A stretch of DNA of 64,000 nt, from the NCBI GenBank assembly GCA_014695195.1, contig JACJNW010000028.1, positions 744,001 to 808,000 on the forward strand, read 5' to 3'. Position numbers and translations under genes: made by a program. Below are positions 32,823 through 40,735 of the stretch, one piece after another. Source of the DNA: Cyanobacteria bacterium FACHB-DQ100. Its GTDB lineage: Bacteria; Cyanobacteriota; Cyanobacteriia; Leptolyngbyales; Leptolyngbyaceae. Each line of letters begins with the position of its first letter. Positions within the stretch are counted from its first letter, which is position 1. The notes beneath the pieces are model-generated. The model saw only the letters and a list, made by a program, of their open reading frames with translations, was not told where the DNA came from and did no database searches.

Positions 32823-32896
32823 GGCGAGCGTAGCCAAGTGGTTAAGGCAGAGGATTGTGGTTCCTCCACTCGGGGGTTCGAGTCCCCTCGTTCGCC
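32823..32896 (+). tRNA. tRNA-His (GTG anticodon)
   Basis: The gene folds as a standard tRNA. The acceptor stem pairs GCGAGCG with CGTTCGC and has the extra G(-1) opposite C73 that marks tRNA-His. The anticodon loop is TTGTGGT (anticodon GTG), the T loop TTCGAGT has a five-pair stem, and no CCA is encoded (CTA follows). Its 3' part is duplicated at 40,326-40,372, showing use as an integration target. Confidence 0.97.
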
Positions 32897-32898
32897 CT
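32852..32898 (+). repeat. attL: left 47-bp direct repeat (tRNA-His 3' part)
   Basis: An exact 47-base copy, from GGATTGTGGTTCC in the anticodon arm through the tRNA 3' end CGTTCGCCCT, is identical to bases 40,326-40,372. Similarity continues after one mismatch (AGTTCTA versus GGTTCTA). This is the usual footprint of a tyrosine recombinase integrating at a tRNA, here with the intact tRNA rebuilt at the left. Confidence 0.93.
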
Positions 32899-32947
32899 AG
32901 TTCTAGAGATTCCCGGTTTAGCGATGGACTAAATCGGGACTAGAACT
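32899..32947 (+). terminator. Hairpin after tRNA-His
   Basis: Arms AGTTCTAG plus TCCCGGTTTAG pair with CTAAATCGGGACTAGAACT, with a four-base bulge on the left. It is likely to be the terminator of the tRNA and lies at the left border of the island. The right arm includes GGACTAAAT, a string also found near the right border. Confidence 0.6.
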
Positions 32948-32999
32948 AAGACCAAAAAAGAATATCTTGGAATCGGGTTAATCATCATCCTTATTGGGT

Positions 33000-33406
33000 T
33001 GTGACAAAAATCAGAATATCTGTGACAGAAATTTTGTCACAATTGTCACGGCTAGAGGGCTTGCTGGATAAGGGTTTCAGAAAGCCGTGACAAAGTCCAT
33101 TTTCATTCTGTCAAAGCTAGAAGCATTGCTGCACACAGGTTTCAGCTACTTTGTGACAAAAATTGCGATTTTTTTGCTCAAAATTTCCGAGTTTTTTATC
33201 TGGAGTTGGTACAGGCTGTATCCCTAATAAAAAACTAATCTTTTATAGAAAATGTTGTCTTTTTTGTCACAGGTAAGCCCAAACCTTTGTAGGGTAAGAG
33301 TTTGGGGTATGACAAAAGTGTGATAAAACGAGACAGTATTTTTGTCACAGCTCCTAAAATGCCCACGGCGCAAGAGTTGTAGCTGTGACAAAAATTTGTC
33401 ACAGCT
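33000..33406. repeat. Array of TGTGACA / TGTCACA boxes with inverted pairing
   Basis: Eight exact boxes occur: TGTGACA at 33000, 33021, 33152, 33384 and TGTCACA at 33035, 33265, 33343, 33397. Variants lie at 33044, 33086, 33109 and 33308. Two dyads are short (33021-33041 and 33381-33406, the latter with 12-bp arms AGCTGTGACAAA/TTTGTCACAGCT). Four further units are bounded by TGTCA and TGACA boxes starting 41-43 bases apart (33044/33086, 33109/33152, 33265/33308, 33343/33384); the units at 33044 and 33109 share about 50 bases of related sequence. Candidate transposase, replication or regulator binding sites. Confidence 0.85.
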
Positions 33407-33420
33407 ATTCAATCTCTCCA

Positions 33421-33510
33421 ATGACGATCGACGCTTGGCTTATTCTTCTGCTGATGCTTGGGTTAGTGGCTTGGGGGATTCTCTCGGAGCGGCGGGATTT
33501 GGGGAAGTGA
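33421..33510 (+). CDS. 29-residue single-helix membrane peptide
   Basis: The ATG ORF encodes MTIDAWLILLLMLGLVAWGI followed by a charged tail (SERRDLGK after a Leu). One membrane helix with an acidic N-terminus and basic/acidic tail is predicted. A near copy lies at 39062-39151 with mainly conservative changes (D/E, I/V, A/S, silent thirds), which argues that the sequence was selected as protein. A 26-bp palindrome of the TGTGACA array ends 14 bases before the ATG, so expression may be controlled there. It could be a type I-like toxin or a small regulatory peptide; no homology is claimed. Confidence 0.6.
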   Translation: MTIDAWLILLLMLGLVAWGILSERRDLGK

Positions 33511-33923
33511 TCAATTGAAGGCGCGATCGCAAGTTCAATTCTTCACAACCTTTGCTGGAACAATTCTGTAGGACTAGAACATTGCAGGCTTCGGTTTGCT
33601 AAGGGTGTTTGTGTTAAATGCTGGGAAGCTAAAACAATTACGAATCACCTTGGACTCTACGCTGCCCTCTTTTTCTCATGAAGCAAACCTTACACTTCGT
33701 ATCAAAAAGAACATTTTATTTGAATTTAGTATAAATTTAAACAGATCTTAAGATTCCTAGTTCCTCCTTGGGAACGTTGACAGCACGCTGTCACGGTGCT
33801 AAAGGCTCTTGCTGGTCGAATCTTGGTTCAATCCTTGGTAATTCCGGCCTTGATTGATCTAACTCATCAGCAGATTAGTCCCCCTACTCTGTTGGCTTTG
33901 ACAACTTTGCTTGACTAACCCTC

Positions 33924-34007
33924 ATGATCTACCTCCACTCAGGAATAGCTCGTCGAATAAAGCCAGGACGGCTAGTTGTGTTCCCCCTAAAACTCTTAGG
34001 AGGTTAG
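33924..34007 (+). CDS. Possible 27-codon upstream ORF
   Basis: An ATG ORF (MIYLHSGIARRIKPGRL, then a short tail ending LLGG) stops one base before the start of the large LOV/GGDEF/EAL gene. Its last codons contain the AGGAGG ribosome binding site of that gene. It could be a translated leader giving coupling, but nothing beyond position supports it. Confidence 0.25.
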   Translation: MIYLHSGIARRIKPGRLVVFPLKLLGG

Positions 34008-34008
34008 A

Positions 34009-37000
34009 ATGACTTCGGTTAGTTCTCACTTTCAAAACAGTGAGCAAGATTCAAGCCAATCTTGCTCGAAGCTAGCAGCAATATCCCAGCGGTGTCTTGC
34101 TGAGTGCCAGAAAATTAATCAAGCCCTACAGCAGGAATTAAGCGCTTGTGAGCGATCGAAGACAGCATTAGAGCAGTTACTTCAGGCAATCGTTGAGCTA
34201 ACCCCCTTACCAATTGCTCTGGCCTGTACAGAGAATCATCAAATTCTGCTGAAAAATGAACTCGTGCAGCCTTTATTCGGCATTCCAGATAGCGAGATTT
34301 TTGACAGGATCGAACCTGAGTATTACGCCAATCCTGCTAACCATGCTCAAATCCTGAACAAACTGCAAGACAAGGAACGGTTGATTCGCTATGAGCTTCA
34401 GCTAAAAACAGCACAGGGGGAGCTTCGAGATACGTTAGTCTCCGCTCAGACCGTTGAGTATGAGGAGCAACCGGCAATCCTCTGGATCTGGACGGACCTA
34501 ACGGAGCAGAGACAGCCCAGTGAGGCACCCCTAGCACAGAAAAAGCCAGAAACGGGGCTGCAACAGAGCGAAACTCAGTTCCGAGTAATTGCGGAGGCCG
34601 CTCCCATTTCCCTCACTGTTAGCCGTGTGACGGATGGACAGCTCCTGTATGCAAATCAACAGGCTGGGCAAACCTTTGGACTTCCTTGCAACCAGTTTGT
34701 CGGACGTACAGTCCTCGGTTTTTACAACAATGCCCTTGACCATCAAGCAATAGTTCAGCGACTTCTGCAAGAGGAATATATTTCTTACTATGAAGTGCAA
34801 GCTAGAAAAGCGGACAATACCCCCTTTTGGGCTGCTGGTTCTCTTCGACTCCTGACCTGGAATGATGAACCTGCGATTTTCAGTGCTTTTTATGACATTA
34901 CAGAACGTAAACAAGCCGAAATTGCTCTCCAGGCACAGGCGCACCAGCAGGCTACAGTGGCTCAATTGGGGCAACTAGCACTTGAATCGAGCAATCTCGC
35001 TCAGCTACTGGACGAAGCGGTCACTTTGATTGCTCAAGTTCTTGGAGTCACGCTGTGTGGAATTTGGCAACAGCTTTCCAATAACAGTACATTGTTGCTG
35101 CAAGCTGGCGTTGGCTGGCAAGAGGGACTCATTGGGTCTACCCTCGTTGGCACCCAGTCCAATTCCCACTTGGGGTATGCACTTCTTACACAGCAGCCTG
35201 TGCTAATCAAGGACTTTCGGACTGACACCCGATTTAGTGGTTCGCCCCTATTACATAATCACCCAGTTGTGAGCGGTGTAAGCCTTTCCATTTCTGGTCA
35301 GTCCCAGCCATTCGGTGTTTTAGGTTGCTTTACAGATAAGCTTCGCACCTTCACACCAGACGATCTTCACTTTTTACAGGCGATCACCAACATCCTGTCT
35401 AATTTCATTTCGCGCCAGCAGTCAGAAGAACGATTGCATTTGATGGAGCGGGCGATTAACGCTAGCAGTAACGGAATTGTGATCACTGATGCCAATCAAC
35501 CCAATAATCCAATCATTTATGTCAATCCAGCCTTTGAAGCAATTACTGGATACAAGGCAGCTGAAGTAATCGGTCAAAATTGTCGCTTTCTTCAAAGGGG
35601 CAATTTTGACCAACCTGCACTAGCCGTATTACGCTCTGCTATCAAGGCACAGGAAGAATGCCACGTGACTTTGCGAAATCACCACAAAGATGGCACGCTC
35701 TTCTGGAATGAACTGTATGTTGCACCAGTGTTTGATGCTGCGGGATGCCTGACTCACTTTGTGGGAGTACAAACTGATATCACTGAGCGCAAAGCAGCAG
35801 AAGAATTGCTGCGGCAACAGGAGGAACAGTATCGCCGCATCGTAGAGACGGCAACCGAGGGAATTTGGATGCTGGATGCAGACAGCAATACCAGTTTTGT
35901 GAATCAACAGACCGCGACCATGCTAGGCTACAGCCCCGATGAGATGCAAGGGAAGCCTTTGTTTGCCTTTATGGATGAGGAGGGCAAGACGCTTGCCAAT
36001 CTTTACTTAGAACGTCGCCGTCAGGGTGTTTGTGAAATGCACGATTTCAAGTTCCGCCGCAAAGATGGAGCAGACTTGTGGGCCATCCTTTCCACGGCTC
36101 CCTTATTTAATGAGCAAGGGAACTACATTGGTGCCTTAGGGATGCTTACCGATGTAACCGATCGAAGACGAGCCGAGATGGCTCTGCGGGAAAGTGAGCA
36201 ACGACTGAATAACATTCTTGGCTCACTCGAAGATGTGGTCTGGTCCGTTTCAGCCGCAACCAGGGAAACGCTTTATCTCAATCCTGCGGCGGAGAGGATT
36301 TACGGTCGGTCAATCGCAGAATTTTTTGACAACTCGAAACTATGGCTGGAGGTAGTTCACCCAGAGGATCAAAAGCGGGTTCGGATTACTGATAAAGCTT
36401 TGCTGAAGCAGAAAGGGTATGAATTGGAGTATCGAATTCTTCGACCTGATGGTAATGTGCGTTGGCTGCATGAGCGGTGCCACGTCGTTTATGATGCAGC
36501 TCGTAAACCCATCCGGATTGATGGCATTTCCACTGATATTACGGAGCGTAAGCAGCTGGAAGCCCAATTAGTGCATGAGGCTTACCACGATGCTCTGACT
36601 GGGCTGCCTAATCGGGTGCTGTTTATGGATCGGCTGAAGCAGGCGATCGCCCGCACGAAACGTCGCTCCAACCATCGATTTGCGGTGCTCTTTGTCGATC
36701 TCGATCGCTTTAAGGTGATCAATGACAGTCTGGGGCATTTAGTGGGCGATCAATTATTGATAGAGATTGCCAAACGCCTTGCAAGCTGTCTGGGTTCCGA
36801 GCAGACGATCGCTCGTTTAGGGGGAGATGAGTTTACGATTCTACTGGAGGCGATCAAGGACGAGAAAGATGCCACTCTGGTCGCTGAACATCTGCATCAG
36901 GCATTAAAATTACCGTTCAACTTGAATGGGTATGAGGTCCTTACCACGGCAAGTATTGGGATTGCATTGAGTGGGATAGGCTATACTCAGCCTGAGAACA

Positions 37001-37875
37001 TGTTGCGTGATGCGGATACTGCCCTTTATCACGCGAAAGGAAAAGGCAAAGCTTGTTGGGCAGTATTTAATGCAGCGATGCACAGTCAGGCGATGTCGCT
37101 GTTGCAGCTAGAGATGCCCTTGCGTCGGGCAATTGAACGACAGGAACTTCAGGTCTACTATCAACCCCTTGTCTCACTCACTACTGGTCGGATTACTGGA
37201 TTTGAAGCTCTCGTGCGCTGGCTGCACCCGGAGCAAGGATTAATTTCTCCGGCTCAATTTATCCCAGTCGCAGAAGAAACCGGACTGATTGTGCCGATTG
37301 GGCAATGGGTATTGTATGAGTCTTGCCGCCAGCTTCAACGATGGCAAACCCAATTACTCACAACTGCTGGATTGACCATGAGCGTTAACCTTTCAAGTAA
37401 GCAATTCGCTCAGCCCAACTTAGTGGAACAAATTAACCAAGTTTTGCAAGAGACTGGGCTAGATCCAGGCAATTTGAAGTTGGAGATTACTGAGAGCGGT
37501 ATTATGGATAATGATGGATCTATGGCTCTTCTGCAACAGCTTCAGGCACTTGGGGTGCAATTGTGCATTGATGATTTTGGTACAGGCTATTCTTCACTCA
37601 GCCGGTTACGCCAGTTGCCGATCCAAACATTAAAGATTGATCGCTCCTTTGTTAGCGCGATGCAGGAATCAACAGCTGATGCAGAGATTGTCCAGGCTAT
37701 TATCACTCTCGCTCACAATCTGGGAATGACTGTAATTGCAGAAGGAGTTGAAACGGCAGACCAATTAGCTCAGCTAGTCCGATTACATTGTGAACAAGGG
37801 CAGGGTTATTTCTTCGCAAAGCCCCTGAATTGCCAGGCAGCAGAAGCAATGCTGATTGCTGGTTCGCAGATGTAA
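34009..37875 (+). CDS. PAS-PAS-GAF-LOV-PAS-PAS-GGDEF-EAL c-di-GMP enzyme
   Basis: A 1288-residue protein, the main island cargo. Order: coiled coil and PAS (about 50-165), PAS (190-300), GAF (320-460), a LOV-type PAS (475-590), two more PAS domains (605-725, 735-850), GGDEF (860-1020) and EAL (1035-1285). The LOV domain has the flavin-adduct motif GQNCRFLQ with C525 and HKDGTLFWNEL. GGDEF is intact (938-942) but the inhibitory RxxD is replaced (GSEQ). EAL residues are intact (EAL 1066-1068, ITESG, DDFGTGYSS 1188-1196, AEGVET). It may make and/or break c-di-GMP under blue light; the net direction cannot be predicted. AGGAGG lies upstream of the ATG. Confidence 0.9.
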   Translation: MTSVSSHFQNSEQDSSQSCSKLAAISQRCLAECQKINQALQQELSACERSKTALEQLLQAIVELTPLPIALACTENHQILLKNELVQPLFGIPDSEIFDRIEPEYYANPANHAQILNKLQDKERLIRYELQLKTAQGELRDTLVSAQTVEYEEQPAILWIWTDLTEQRQPSEAPLAQKKPETGLQQSETQFRVIAEAAPISLTVSRVTDGQLLYANQQAGQTFGLPCNQFVGRTVLGFYNNALDHQAIVQRLLQEEYISYYEVQARKADNTPFWAAGSLRLLTWNDEPAIFSAFYDITERKQAEIALQAQAHQQATVAQLGQLALESSNLAQLLDEAVTLIAQVLGVTLCGIWQQLSNNSTLLLQAGVGWQEGLIGSTLVGTQSNSHLGYALLTQQPVLIKDFRTDTRFSGSPLLHNHPVVSGVSLSISGQSQPFGVLGCFTDKLRTFTPDDLHFLQAITNILSNFISRQQSEERLHLMERAINASSNGIVITDANQPNNPIIYVNPAFEAITGYKAAEVIGQNCRFLQRGNFDQPALAVLRSAIKAQEECHVTLRNHHKDGTLFWNELYVAPVFDAAGCLTHFVGVQTDITERKAAEELLRQQEEQYRRIVETATEGIWMLDADSNTSFVNQQTATMLGYSPDEMQGKPLFAFMDEEGKTLANLYLERRRQGVCEMHDFKFRRKDGADLWAILSTAPLFNEQGNYIGALGMLTDVTDRRRAEMALRESEQRLNNILGSLEDVVWSVSAATRETLYLNPAAERIYGRSIAEFFDNSKLWLEVVHPEDQKRVRITDKALLKQKGYELEYRILRPDGNVRWLHERCHVVYDAARKPIRIDGISTDITERKQLEAQLVHEAYHDALTGLPNRVLFMDRLKQAIARTKRRSNHRFAVLFVDLDRFKVINDSLGHLVGDQLLIEIAKRLASCLGSEQTIARLGGDEFTILLEAIKDEKDATLVAEHLHQALKLPFNLNGYEVLTTASIGIALSGIGYTQPENMLRDADTALYHAKGKGKACWAVFNAAMHSQAMSLLQLEMPLRRAIERQELQVYYQPLVSLTTGRITGFEALVRWLHPEQGLISPAQFIPVAEETGLIVPIGQWVLYESCRQLQRWQTQLLTTAGLTMSVNLSSKQFAQPNLVEQINQVLQETGLDPGNLKLEITESGIMDNDGSMALLQQLQALGVQLCIDDFGTGYSSLSRLRQLPIQTLKIDRSFVSAMQESTADAEIVQAIITLAHNLGMTVIAEGVETADQLAQLVRLHCEQGQGYFFAKPLNCQAAEAMLIAGSQM

Positions 37876-37946
37876 AGGAAGCTTCTCCACCAATACCGCT
37901 GTTGGTGTTCTGTATTCTATTACATTCTGAATAGGAGAAGTCGCGG

Positions 37947-38060
37947 TTGAGATCAAGCGTTTTGATCCCAGCGTTGGCAGTTGGCGTTCCTTTAACGATC
38001 GTGTTCACCGGATTAATCTGCTACTCCTATCATCCGGTGCGCGCCTTTACTAACCGATAG
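37947..38060 (+). CDS. Possible 37-residue membrane peptide (TTG start)
   Basis: TTG-initiated ORF with GGAG about nine bases upstream, encoding a peptide with one strong membrane helix (LIPALAVGVPLTIVFTGLIC) and a short polar tail (YSYHPVRAFTNR). It lies just after the LOV/GGDEF/EAL gene. It is too short for ORF callers; support is the ribosome site and helix. Confidence 0.4.
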   Translation: MRSSVLIPALAVGVPLTIVFTGLICYSYHPVRAFTNR

Positions 38061-38086
38061 GAATTGGTGCGCTCGATTCTCCCCGC

Positions 38087-38221
38087 ATGGAACAAGAGCA
38101 ATTCTCTACGGCTCCGAGTGCGATTAGCTACGTCCCACCAAGGACAGAGCAGCATAACGCTCCCGTCCACCCGCCACAGATAACCTCGAACTCAACATCA
38201 GTGGTTCGTCCGCTGCCGTGA
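38087..38221 (+). CDS. Possible 44-residue soluble peptide
   Basis: ATG ORF 26 bases after the membrane peptide, encoding a polar proline-rich peptide (MEQEQFSTAPSAISYVPPRT, then a tail rich in Pro, Ser and Thr). No family is recognised, and coding is only weakly supported. The remaining 250 bases to the next gene contain palindromes at 38344-38357 (AGCGTCC/GGACGCT) and at about 38430-38450 (AGGTTCCC/GGGAACCT). Confidence 0.3.
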   Translation: MEQEQFSTAPSAISYVPPRTEQHNAPVHPPQITSNSTSVVRPLP

Positions 38222-38476
38222 AGTGTTAGCCCTCATTCACAGACTTAGGACTACTTGGCGCTATCTCTGGCGGGATTTTTCTTTTGGATTTCCCAGGGTC
38301 AATCCTGAAAAGTTTTGTGTTCGTGACTTAATTGTGAAGCTTTAGCGTCCGGACGCTGTAGCAGGAACAAGGGAAGGCGAAGGACTCACCCTATCTCCGG
38401 GACTCTCCATATTCCTTAGGCATAATCCTTCAGGTTCCCTAGGGGGAACCTCTAAAGCAAGGCGGGAGAAAGACTG

Positions 38477-38980
38477 ATGAAAGGCAAGATCAAAATCGTT
38501 TTGGCTGTGTTGGCACTTCCCGCAATTTGGGCACTTGGAGCCAAGACGGGTAAAGGCAAGCTGTTTCGATGGTGGCTAATGCTGAGTCTGTATTATTCTC
38601 CTGTAACGATCCTTAAAGAGATTGCAAGAGACCCTCGCGACAGCAACAACACGACAATGATCTCGCAACCTGTAGATCGAGGGCAGCTTTTTGCCGACAG
38701 TTTTCAAGGACAGATTAAAGCAAGGTCGGCAGAAGGACTCCGCACAGAATACGCTTCGGAGGTTTTCTCTGCCTGGACTAATCAGTTATTGAATCACAGT
38801 GAAACCTTTAACGCTGCTTTTAACAATGCTTGTGCTGAGCTACAGGAATTCCAAGGAGACGCAAATAAAGCAGGATCTTTAGCTCACAGCGTTAATGGAT
38901 ACACAAGAACCCTCGATCAGTACGTTGTGTATAACCAGATCAAGTTTGACGCTGCAAAGCAATCGGGCTGTACACCCTAG
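38477..38980 (+). CDS. Membrane-anchored island protein of unknown function
   Basis: A 167-residue protein with GGGAG before its ATG. The N-terminus has a hydrophobic helix (IKIVLAVLALPAIWALGA) and a second hydrophobic stretch (WWLMLSLYYSPVTIL); the rest is polar and helix-prone (RTEYASEVFSAWTNQLL, FNAAFNNACAELQEF) and ends SGCTP. I do not recognise the family. It is island-borne, between the tiny ORFs and the integrase. Confidence 0.65.
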   Translation: MKGKIKIVLAVLALPAIWALGAKTGKGKLFRWWLMLSLYYSPVTILKEIARDPRDSNNTTMISQPVDRGQLFADSFQGQIKARSAEGLRTEYASEVFSAWTNQLLNHSETFNAAFNNACAELQEFQGDANKAGSLAHSVNGYTRTLDQYVVYNQIKFDAAKQSGCTP

Positions 38981-39061
38981 TACCTCGCTAACCTCTCAGG
39001 TCTTCCATAGGGATCGTCCTTAAGGGTTGACGCACTTGAAACACGCTAACAAATTTCTCCC

Positions 39062-39151
39062 ATGACGATCGAGGCTTAGCTTGTCCTTCTGCTGATGCTT
39101 GCGCTCGTATCTTGGGGAATTCTGTTGGAGCGGCGTGATTTGGGGGAGTGA
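39062..39151 (+). pseudogene. Second copy of the small membrane-peptide ORF, with a stop
   Basis: It has the same 30-codon length as 33421-33510 and about 80% identical bases. The Trp codon six is TAG here, so full translation stops after five residues; an in-frame ATG at codon 12 could give MLALVSWGILLERRDLGE. Similarity continues past the stop (TCGATTGAAGGGCGCGATCG). It lies 61 bases before the integrase. Confidence 0.7.
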
Positions 39152-39212
39152 TCGATTGAAGGGCGCGATCGCACTTCTTGAGGATTGCTCATACCTAAAA
39201 TGAGAGAGATTC

Positions 39213-40190
39213 TTGTGGGTACGCAGCAATGGCGAAACAGACACGCCCTCGACTATCAAGAGACACAAAAAATCTAGCGCTGCTAATTGCAATGGCTGTC
39301 CGCAAGCCTGTAGAGAGTTCAATTGGGACGACTGGACAGACAACACGAAGCCAGAACTAGATGCGGTTAAGGATTGGTTAGAGCGCTTTGAAGTCGATTA
39401 TTTTCAACGCAGGAAGCGTACACCCAAAAGCGAAACGACGTGGAAGACTGACTATAAACAGCCCTTTGGACAATTACCAGCCGATGAACCGTTAACGGCG
39501 GAATTGTTGCGATCGTTCATCCTTAAAACAGAGCCAGACACCCGCAATCGGCAACGGCGGTGCATGGCTTATGGACAGTTAGCCAAGCTTGCCGGGTTGG
39601 AAATGGATGCAACCGCATTGCGGGGGGACTATTCCGCTAAACGATTGAACCCACGCGACCTCCCAAGCGATAAAGAGATCTCAGAGTGGCGCGATCGCAT
39701 CAATAAGGAGAATGAGTCTTGGGGATATGCTTTCGGGTTGATGGCTTGCTATGGTTTGCGAAATCATGAGCTATTCCATATCGACCTACAAAAGTTGCGA
39801 GATAGTCCAGTGCTAACGCTGCTGGAGGATGAAAACGGCGGCGGAAAGACGGGCGGTAGGCGTGTTTGGGCGCTCTATCCCGAATGGTATGACCAATGGC
39901 ATTTGTGGGACGTAAAGCTACTGCCACAGGTAACAGGCAAGACCAATGCAGCATTAGGAAACCGTGTGACGACTGCGTTTGCTCGATACGGTCTCCATAA
40001 GCCTTACAACCTGCGTCATGCTTGGGCGGTAAGATCGATCGACTTCTTGCCCATTGAACTTGCAGCCGCTCAGATGGGACATTCGCTAAAGGTTCACTCG
40101 GAAATTTATCACCATTGGATTTCTGACGAGACACACCAACGGGCTTATGATGCCGCAATAAATAGATCAGATCGACCCTTGCCGCCTTGA
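39213..40190 (+). CDS. Tyrosine recombinase (island integrase), N-terminus atypical
   Basis: A 325-residue site-specific recombinase of the cyanobacterial tRNA-island type. Catalytic residues are R183 (YGLRNHELF), a probable Lys near 212 (GKTGGRR), R268 in YNLRHAWAVR (Tyr265 where His is usual), H290 (MGHS) and the nucleophile Y299. The core-binding part is CREFNWDDWTDNTKPELD to KRTPKSETTWKTDY. The reading frame has no ATG near its start and begins at TTG 39213; an ATG at 39229 opens a different frame (MAKQTRPRLSRDTKNLALLI). The arm-type N-terminal region seen in relatives is missing or frameshifted. Confidence 0.85.
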   Translation: MWVRSNGETDTPSTIKRHKKSSAANCNGCPQACREFNWDDWTDNTKPELDAVKDWLERFEVDYFQRRKRTPKSETTWKTDYKQPFGQLPADEPLTAELLRSFILKTEPDTRNRQRRCMAYGQLAKLAGLEMDATALRGDYSAKRLNPRDLPSDKEISEWRDRINKENESWGYAFGLMACYGLRNHELFHIDLQKLRDSPVLTLLEDENGGGKTGGRRVWALYPEWYDQWHLWDVKLLPQVTGKTNAALGNRVTTAFARYGLHKPYNLRHAWAVRSIDFLPIELAAAQMGHSLKVHSEIYHHWISDETHQRAYDAAINRSDRPLPP

Positions 40191-40290
40191 CGGACTAAAT
40201 TTGGACTAAATAACAGCAATGGTCTGGAGTGTTTACCGATAGTTTGGTACATTCGCTCAGTTAAAAAAGCTTGATTTTATAAGGGTTTTA

Positions 40291-40317
40291 ACCTGTATCG
40301 CCTTGGTACAGGCTTTT
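40291..40317 (+). terminator. Terminator of the integrase gene
   Basis: CCTGTA and TACAGG arms with a nine-base loop are followed by CTTTTT, between the integrase and attR. The string TTGGTACAGGCT here (40303-40314) also occurs inside the left array at 33206-33217. Confidence 0.65.
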
Positions 40318-40325
40318 TCCGTTTT

Positions 40326-40372
40326 GGATTGTGGTTCCTCCACTCGGGGGTTCGAGTCCCCTCGTTCGCCCT
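40326..40372 (+). repeat. attR: right 47-bp direct repeat
   Basis: Exact copy of bases 32,852-32,898 (3' part of tRNA-His) without the tRNA 5' half. It marks the right border of the island; chromosome-like sequence resumes afterwards. Confidence 0.93.
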
Positions 40373-40433
40373 GGTTCTAACGATTGGCTTGAACTTGTGA
40401 GCCAAATCTGATCGAGACGAGAACAAACTGAAT

Positions 40434-40530: not shown

Positions 40531-40735
40531 GTGTGTGAGAAGCTGATTTGTTTAACTAGAATGCTTATACTGCAGTTCTCACACACACCAGAATGTCTAG
40601 CAGACGATCTCCCGCTCTCCGTAACAGTTGCAAGCACTGATAAAGTTTGCGCGAAGGTTCACGCAAGCCGAACTCATCATTTGATTTTGCGTCACTATAA
40701 GTTATAGTCACATTCCCAAACGTGAGGGCAGAGAC

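Follow-up and report, generated by a model that had tools for sequence, protein, structure and literature searches.

We found that the clustered TGTGACA/TGTCACA boxes at positions 33000–33406 of the window (the whole stretch of DNA analysed, 64,000 nucleotides; 744001–808000 of contig C28 in genome G000) are most probably an orphaned replication origin of the iteron type that belonged to an integrative element resembling a plasmid. They are situated a short way into an insertion of about 7.5 kb (32852–40385) at a tRNA-His gene, next to its left end. A preliminary description of the sequence had likened the array to a transposon end and had listed an origin or iteron region among the alternatives; it is this alternative that is backed by comparison with VapE loci and plasmids. 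Relatives and gene content point to a cyanobacterial host.

The TGTGACA boxes are real and occur far above chance. All twelve boxes reported within about 400 bases, eight exact and four variant, are present, and are arranged in a left iteron group (33000–33158; boxes at 33000+, 33021+, 33035−, 33044− (variant TGTCACG), 33087+ (variant CGTGACA), 33109− (variant TGTCAAA), and 33152+) and a right iteron group (33265–33403; boxes at 33265−, 33308+ (variant TATGACA), 33343−, 33384+, and 33397−). The remaining 63.6 kb of the window holds six exact boxes, the chance expectation for the whole window being about seven. The top 7-mer of 33000–33406, GTGACAA, has nine copies counting both strands, as compared with a mean of 2.4 and a maximum of 5 for the top 7-mer in 2000 dinucleotide shuffles of the same stretch. 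Between the facing boxes of the two groups lies a 105-bp gap (33159–33263; 71% AT) overlooked in the preliminary description, which belongs to the most AT-rich 0.02% of all 105-bp stretches in the window and is a candidate DNA-unwinding element.

The internal order of the array was also as first described, with inverted pairs 41–43 bases apart (43 for 33044/33087, 33109/33152, and 33265/33308, and 41 for 33343/33384) and interior sequence, CTAGA-N4-TTGCTGnAnAnrGGTTTCAG, common to units A (33044–33093) and B (33109–33158). The core motif reads TTGCTGGATAAGGGTTTCAG in unit A (33061–33080, plus strand) and TTGCTGCACACAGGTTTCAG in unit B (33126–33145, plus strand), with TTTCAG 5–6 nt ahead of a box in both. 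The right group contains units C (33265–33314) and D (33343–33390), as well as a perfect 13+2+13 palindrome, TAGCTGTGACAAA-AA-TTTGTCACAGCTA, at 33380–33407, which had likewise been overlooked. The strong predicted fold of the array (z about −7) is explained by the inverted repeats; Rfam recognised the tRNA alone in this region, weak microRNA matches reflecting hairpins only. A whole-genome search, as had been proposed, showed the array to be unique: neither a second copy nor another TTTGTCAC-N20-44-GTGACAAA pair was found elsewhere in the 5.5-Mb genome, and the array had chance matches only when plasmids and phages were searched by BLAST.

The limits of the surrounding element were established by alignment with sibling genomes. 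The integration target is the tRNA-His gene (anticodon GTG; 32824–32897, plus strand; ARAGORN and Rfam), of which the 3′ part with its flank (attL, 32852–32911, plus strand) recurs with 95% identity as a 60-bp direct repeat (attR, 40326–40385, plus strand), missed in the preliminary description, directly after a tyrosine recombinase gene (39213–40190, plus strand). The sequence that follows the second tRNA copy resembles that directly 3′ of tRNA-His in the sibling genome G004 (77% over 270 bp), as expected if 32852–40385 is an insertion. In G004 and in a second sibling, G007, relatives of the recombinase likewise adjoin tRNA-His attachment repeats. Thus, the suggested link of a mobile element to a tRNA holds, the tRNA being tRNA-His, although its agent is a tyrosine recombinase. 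The recombinase lacks about 50 N-terminal residues relative to its homologues, the catalytic part being kept. At several sites, a tRNA gene or attachment repeat is followed by a TGTGTGTGAGAA-type inverted repeat whose arms are about 35 bp apart (window 40531–40590; L094, L267, and L093).

The cargo of the element consists of a 1288-residue PAS/GAF-GGDEF-EAL protein (34009–37875, plus strand; Pfam) and a 167-residue protein with no Pfam match (38477–38980, plus strand), a relative of which is encoded in G007 (L090). The cargo is flanked by copies of a hydrophobic micro-ORF of 29 codons (MTIDAWLILLLMLGLVAWGILSERRDLGK), one between the array and the cargo (33421–33510, plus strand) and the other, with an in-frame stop, ahead of the recombinase (39062–39150). 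Many copies of this micro-ORF (MTI..AWL..LLMLGLVAWG...ERRD), together with about 120 bp of flank, were seen in the genus (also in L097, L089, L092, and L098), where they often flank GGDEF/PAS genes and follow box arrays with differing boxes. Among these, arrays with boxes GGTAACTT, CTGGCTAAC, and GGTTGGCAAG lie ahead of the micro-ORF at about 111400 and 121400 of G000:C37 (L097, 3310–3470 and 13240–13490), the latter close to an integrase-like fragment, and in G001:C10 (L098, 4060–4200), with no VapE recognised nearby; these are possibly further orphan origins. In the element of the window, Pfam analysis of the ORFs recognised no VapE, DUF3854, primase, or other replication or initiator gene, and no such gene (rep or VapE) stands immediately 5′ of the array. 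The only VapE gene of the same genome is on contig C32, with an array of GGTTGTCC boxes at its 3′ side. A VapE protein scan of a collection of genome contigs gave no confirmed relative.

Arrays of this build accompany VapE genes in other cyanobacteria as well. By a fixed rule (at least seven copies of one 7-mer, in both orientations, within 450 bp), arrays were detected at 19 of 29 cyanobacterial VapE loci, no array adjoining VapE at the other 10, versus 2 of 148 control pieces, which were pattern matches from varied genomes and not matched intergenic sequence. They are composed of 7–8-bp boxes in inverted groups with an AT-rich gap, situated at the 3′ end of the VapE (helicase-primase) gene; in several of them (L099, with 142 bp and 75% AT, L113, and L131) the gap between facing boxes is about 95–140 bp. 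The box sequence varies with the VapE element (GGTTGTCC, TGTTACA, GGTGGTA, CCGTCACC, TACACAG, GTGGCAC, GGTACCAC, GGTTGGTC, AGGTCGG, TGCTACC, GGTGTCA, and others). When the boxes were masked, TTTCAG (with its complement) was the most widespread 6-mer, present in 14 of 18 VapE arrays, and it lay 2–10 nt ahead of a box in 10 of the 18 (next best 6-mer, 7; permuted 6-mers, mean 0.7). The longer core, TTGCTG...GGTTTCAG, occurs in some VapE-linked arrays and is absent or weak in others, such as the GTGGAAC arrays of Nostoc.

VapE was also found by protein search on many cyanobacterial plasmids. Seven of ten VapE plasmids examined carry an array, six of these overlapping or directly following the 3′ end of VapE; the array is near the gene on Nostoc plasmids and about 1.1 kb downstream of it on a Phormidium plasmid (L303), and three of the ten have no array adjoining VapE by the rules used. 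The smallest is p2-NIES88 of Microcystis (NZ_AP024567.1), a plasmid of 3,117 bp that encodes VapE, one small protein, and nothing else. Its array, 3′ of VapE, has nine GGTAGGG boxes and a 127-bp gap (73% AT) between facing boxes, and contains a core of the same class as that of unit A, TTGCTGTATATAGGTTTCAG; this core matches TTGCTGNANANRGGTTTCAG, a pattern that had been defined on the window alone before this comparison. This array is very likely the replication origin of the plasmid, because a two-gene plasmid must hold its origin and because origins of PICIs, in which iterons lie 3′ of the initiator gene in two sets flanking an AT-rich region (PMC6092414), share that build.

The likeness to the p2-NIES88 array argues that the window array, too, was once an origin. 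The arrays of p2-NIES88, C32, and the window all have inverted box groups with an AT-rich gap between facing boxes, and the TTGCTG...GGTTTCAG core is common to the window and the arrays of VapE-type replicons, C32 having a related CTTGTATATCAAGCGGTTCAG. The window array differs in its boxes (TGTGACA versus GGTAGGG or GGTTGTCC) and in having no adjoining VapE gene; since adjacency to an initiator gene is the defining feature, we regard it as an orphan look-alike and not as a working member. The PICI/SaPI origins (PMC6092414) have the same build and, by analogy, a probably similar way of working; unlike those islands, the window element has no rep gene, satellite genes, or shown link to a phage, and membership of the PICIs is not claimed. 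In scans of other genomes, an array combining TGTGACA boxes with an initiator gene was not found, and a search for a cognate having both TGTGACA boxes and the core gave a single array-like match (L225), rejected as a collagen-like coding repeat. The alpha origin of phage P4 (ori1/crr, type I iterons) likewise consists of short repeats of either orientation to which a primase-helicase binds; its ori and crr lie apart, and its sequence differs from that of the window array.

Presumably, the ancestral element encoded a VapE-type helicase-primase initiator that bound the TGTGACA boxes on either side of the 105-bp gap and melted it, so that replication of the excised circle could begin, the core between the boxes being a conserved origin component of help in this process. 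Integration into tRNA-His would have been the work of the tyrosine recombinase, placing the origin beside attL and the integrase beside attR, and the cargo with its flanking micro-ORF repeats may later have displaced the interior, leaving the element with no initiator gene and with an integrase devoid of its N-terminus. VapE and an array are both found no more than a few kb from an integrase of the same family in G262, G268, G106 (twice), G330, and G310; some of these integrases adjoin a tRNA. The nearest relatives of the integrase in the genus accompany DUF3854 primases and arrays that are shorter and have other boxes, and the lost initiator could therefore have been of the DUF3854 type. A 19-kb tRNA-His element in G004 (L094), with an integrase, a DUF3854 primase, an actin-like ParM homologue, and an array of CGTGGCA boxes, appears to be an intact integrative plasmid with an integrase of this family.

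An operator cluster, an alternative raised in the preliminary description, might be bound by a repressor of the micro-ORF and cargo or of an antisense gene; the palindromic pairing of boxes ahead of the micro-ORF and the GGDEF-EAL gene speaks for it. We consider this improbable, as no regulator gene was recognised in the element and many genomes, the two-gene plasmid among them, have arrays of the same build 3′ of VapE. Even less probable is that the tyrosine recombinase of the element itself uses the boxes as arm-type or excisionase sites. The array is only about 100 bp from attL; however, the boxes are absent near attR and from siblings with 72–73% identical integrases, and other candidate arm repeats, recognised by eye, recur at both ends of each element (GGACTAAAT in the window, GTGAGCC... 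in G004, and GTGAGCAAG... in G007). In the window, these putative arm-type repeats are GGACTAAATCGGGACTAGAA at 32926–32945 and, on the integrase side, GGACTAAATTTGGACTAAAT at 40192–40211 (both plus strand), agreeing in 16 of 20 bases. Such element-specific repeats differ from the TGTGACA boxes, which are thus probably not recombinase sites.

The preliminary description had favoured a relic end of a Tn7-like or type V-K CAST element, with the TGTGACA boxes as TnsB sites, and the adjoining tRNA and the TGACA shared with known ends are compatible with this. A Tn7-like end for comparison came from a search of 380 genomes for TTTGTCAC-N-GTGACAAA, which gave scattered single pairs, among them this TnsB-linked end (L282) and one pair apparently in a coding region (L292). 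The L282 end, which adjoins a TnsB-like gene with rve and Mu-transpos_C domains, also has TGACA at its heart, yet it is built differently, with a terminal TGTACA followed by inner TGACAAATTA boxes all in one direction, whereas the window array has no TGTACA and carries inverted box groups about an AT-rich gap. The proposed search for a matching right end and a target duplication revealed no second array in the genome and, at the flanks, the 60-bp tRNA repeat of an attL/attR pair with a tyrosine recombinase instead of a 5-bp duplication. The absence of TnsB, TnsC, TniQ, and Cas12k ORFs at the array, already remarked upon, holds for the whole element; the only TniQ match of the genome is a TnsD-like gene on contig C42, the first 16 kb of which contains no TnsB among ORFs of at least 200 residues and no box cluster. 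Tn7-like/CAST ends and the window array thus both have TGACA-containing boxes and differ in orientation, termini, partners, and type of target, and we judge a transposon end very unlikely. A cluster of small palindromic repeats (MITE/REP-like) with no origin function is just as unlikely: every unit is an inverted repeat and the core recurs in MITE-like repeats of other genomes (L035/L039 and L042), but the units have no other copies in the genome and are ordered about the AT-rich gap as in the plasmid array.

The core pattern was found in 8 of 390 genomes, its reversed control giving no match, and it was encountered in further contexts. The exact core TTGCTGNAYAAGGGTTTCAG was seen in apparent leaders of CRISPR arrays about 100–150 bp before the first repeat (L033, L043, L048, and L050, in G287, G272, and G126), in L033 between copies of CGACCCCCTCG. 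Short repeats with terminal inverted repeats, MITE-like and at two sites per genome, also contain it (L035/L039 in G108 and L042/L049 in G346). In L054 and L292, box arrays, that of L054 with the core, apparently lie inside the coding sequence of replication-protein-like genes, which suggests origins embedded in rep genes. Rather tentatively, and with the balance against it, TTGCTGnAyAnrGGTTTCAG might be an initiator-independent origin element, a host factor target or a site of primosome loading, shared by cyanobacterial origins with wholly different iterons and also used in CRISPR leaders and MITE-like repeats.

Collectively, a transposon-end interpretation is replaced by a testable origin. 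Inverted box groups, an AT-rich gap, and TTTCAG near a box provide a rule by which origins could be located in cyanobacterial VapE-type elements and plasmids, and orphan origins of this kind would serve as markers of decayed integrative plasmids. The possible shared core is the part of the finding worth following, since arrays share it although their boxes differ, which indicates a component of the origin not accounted for by initiator specificity.
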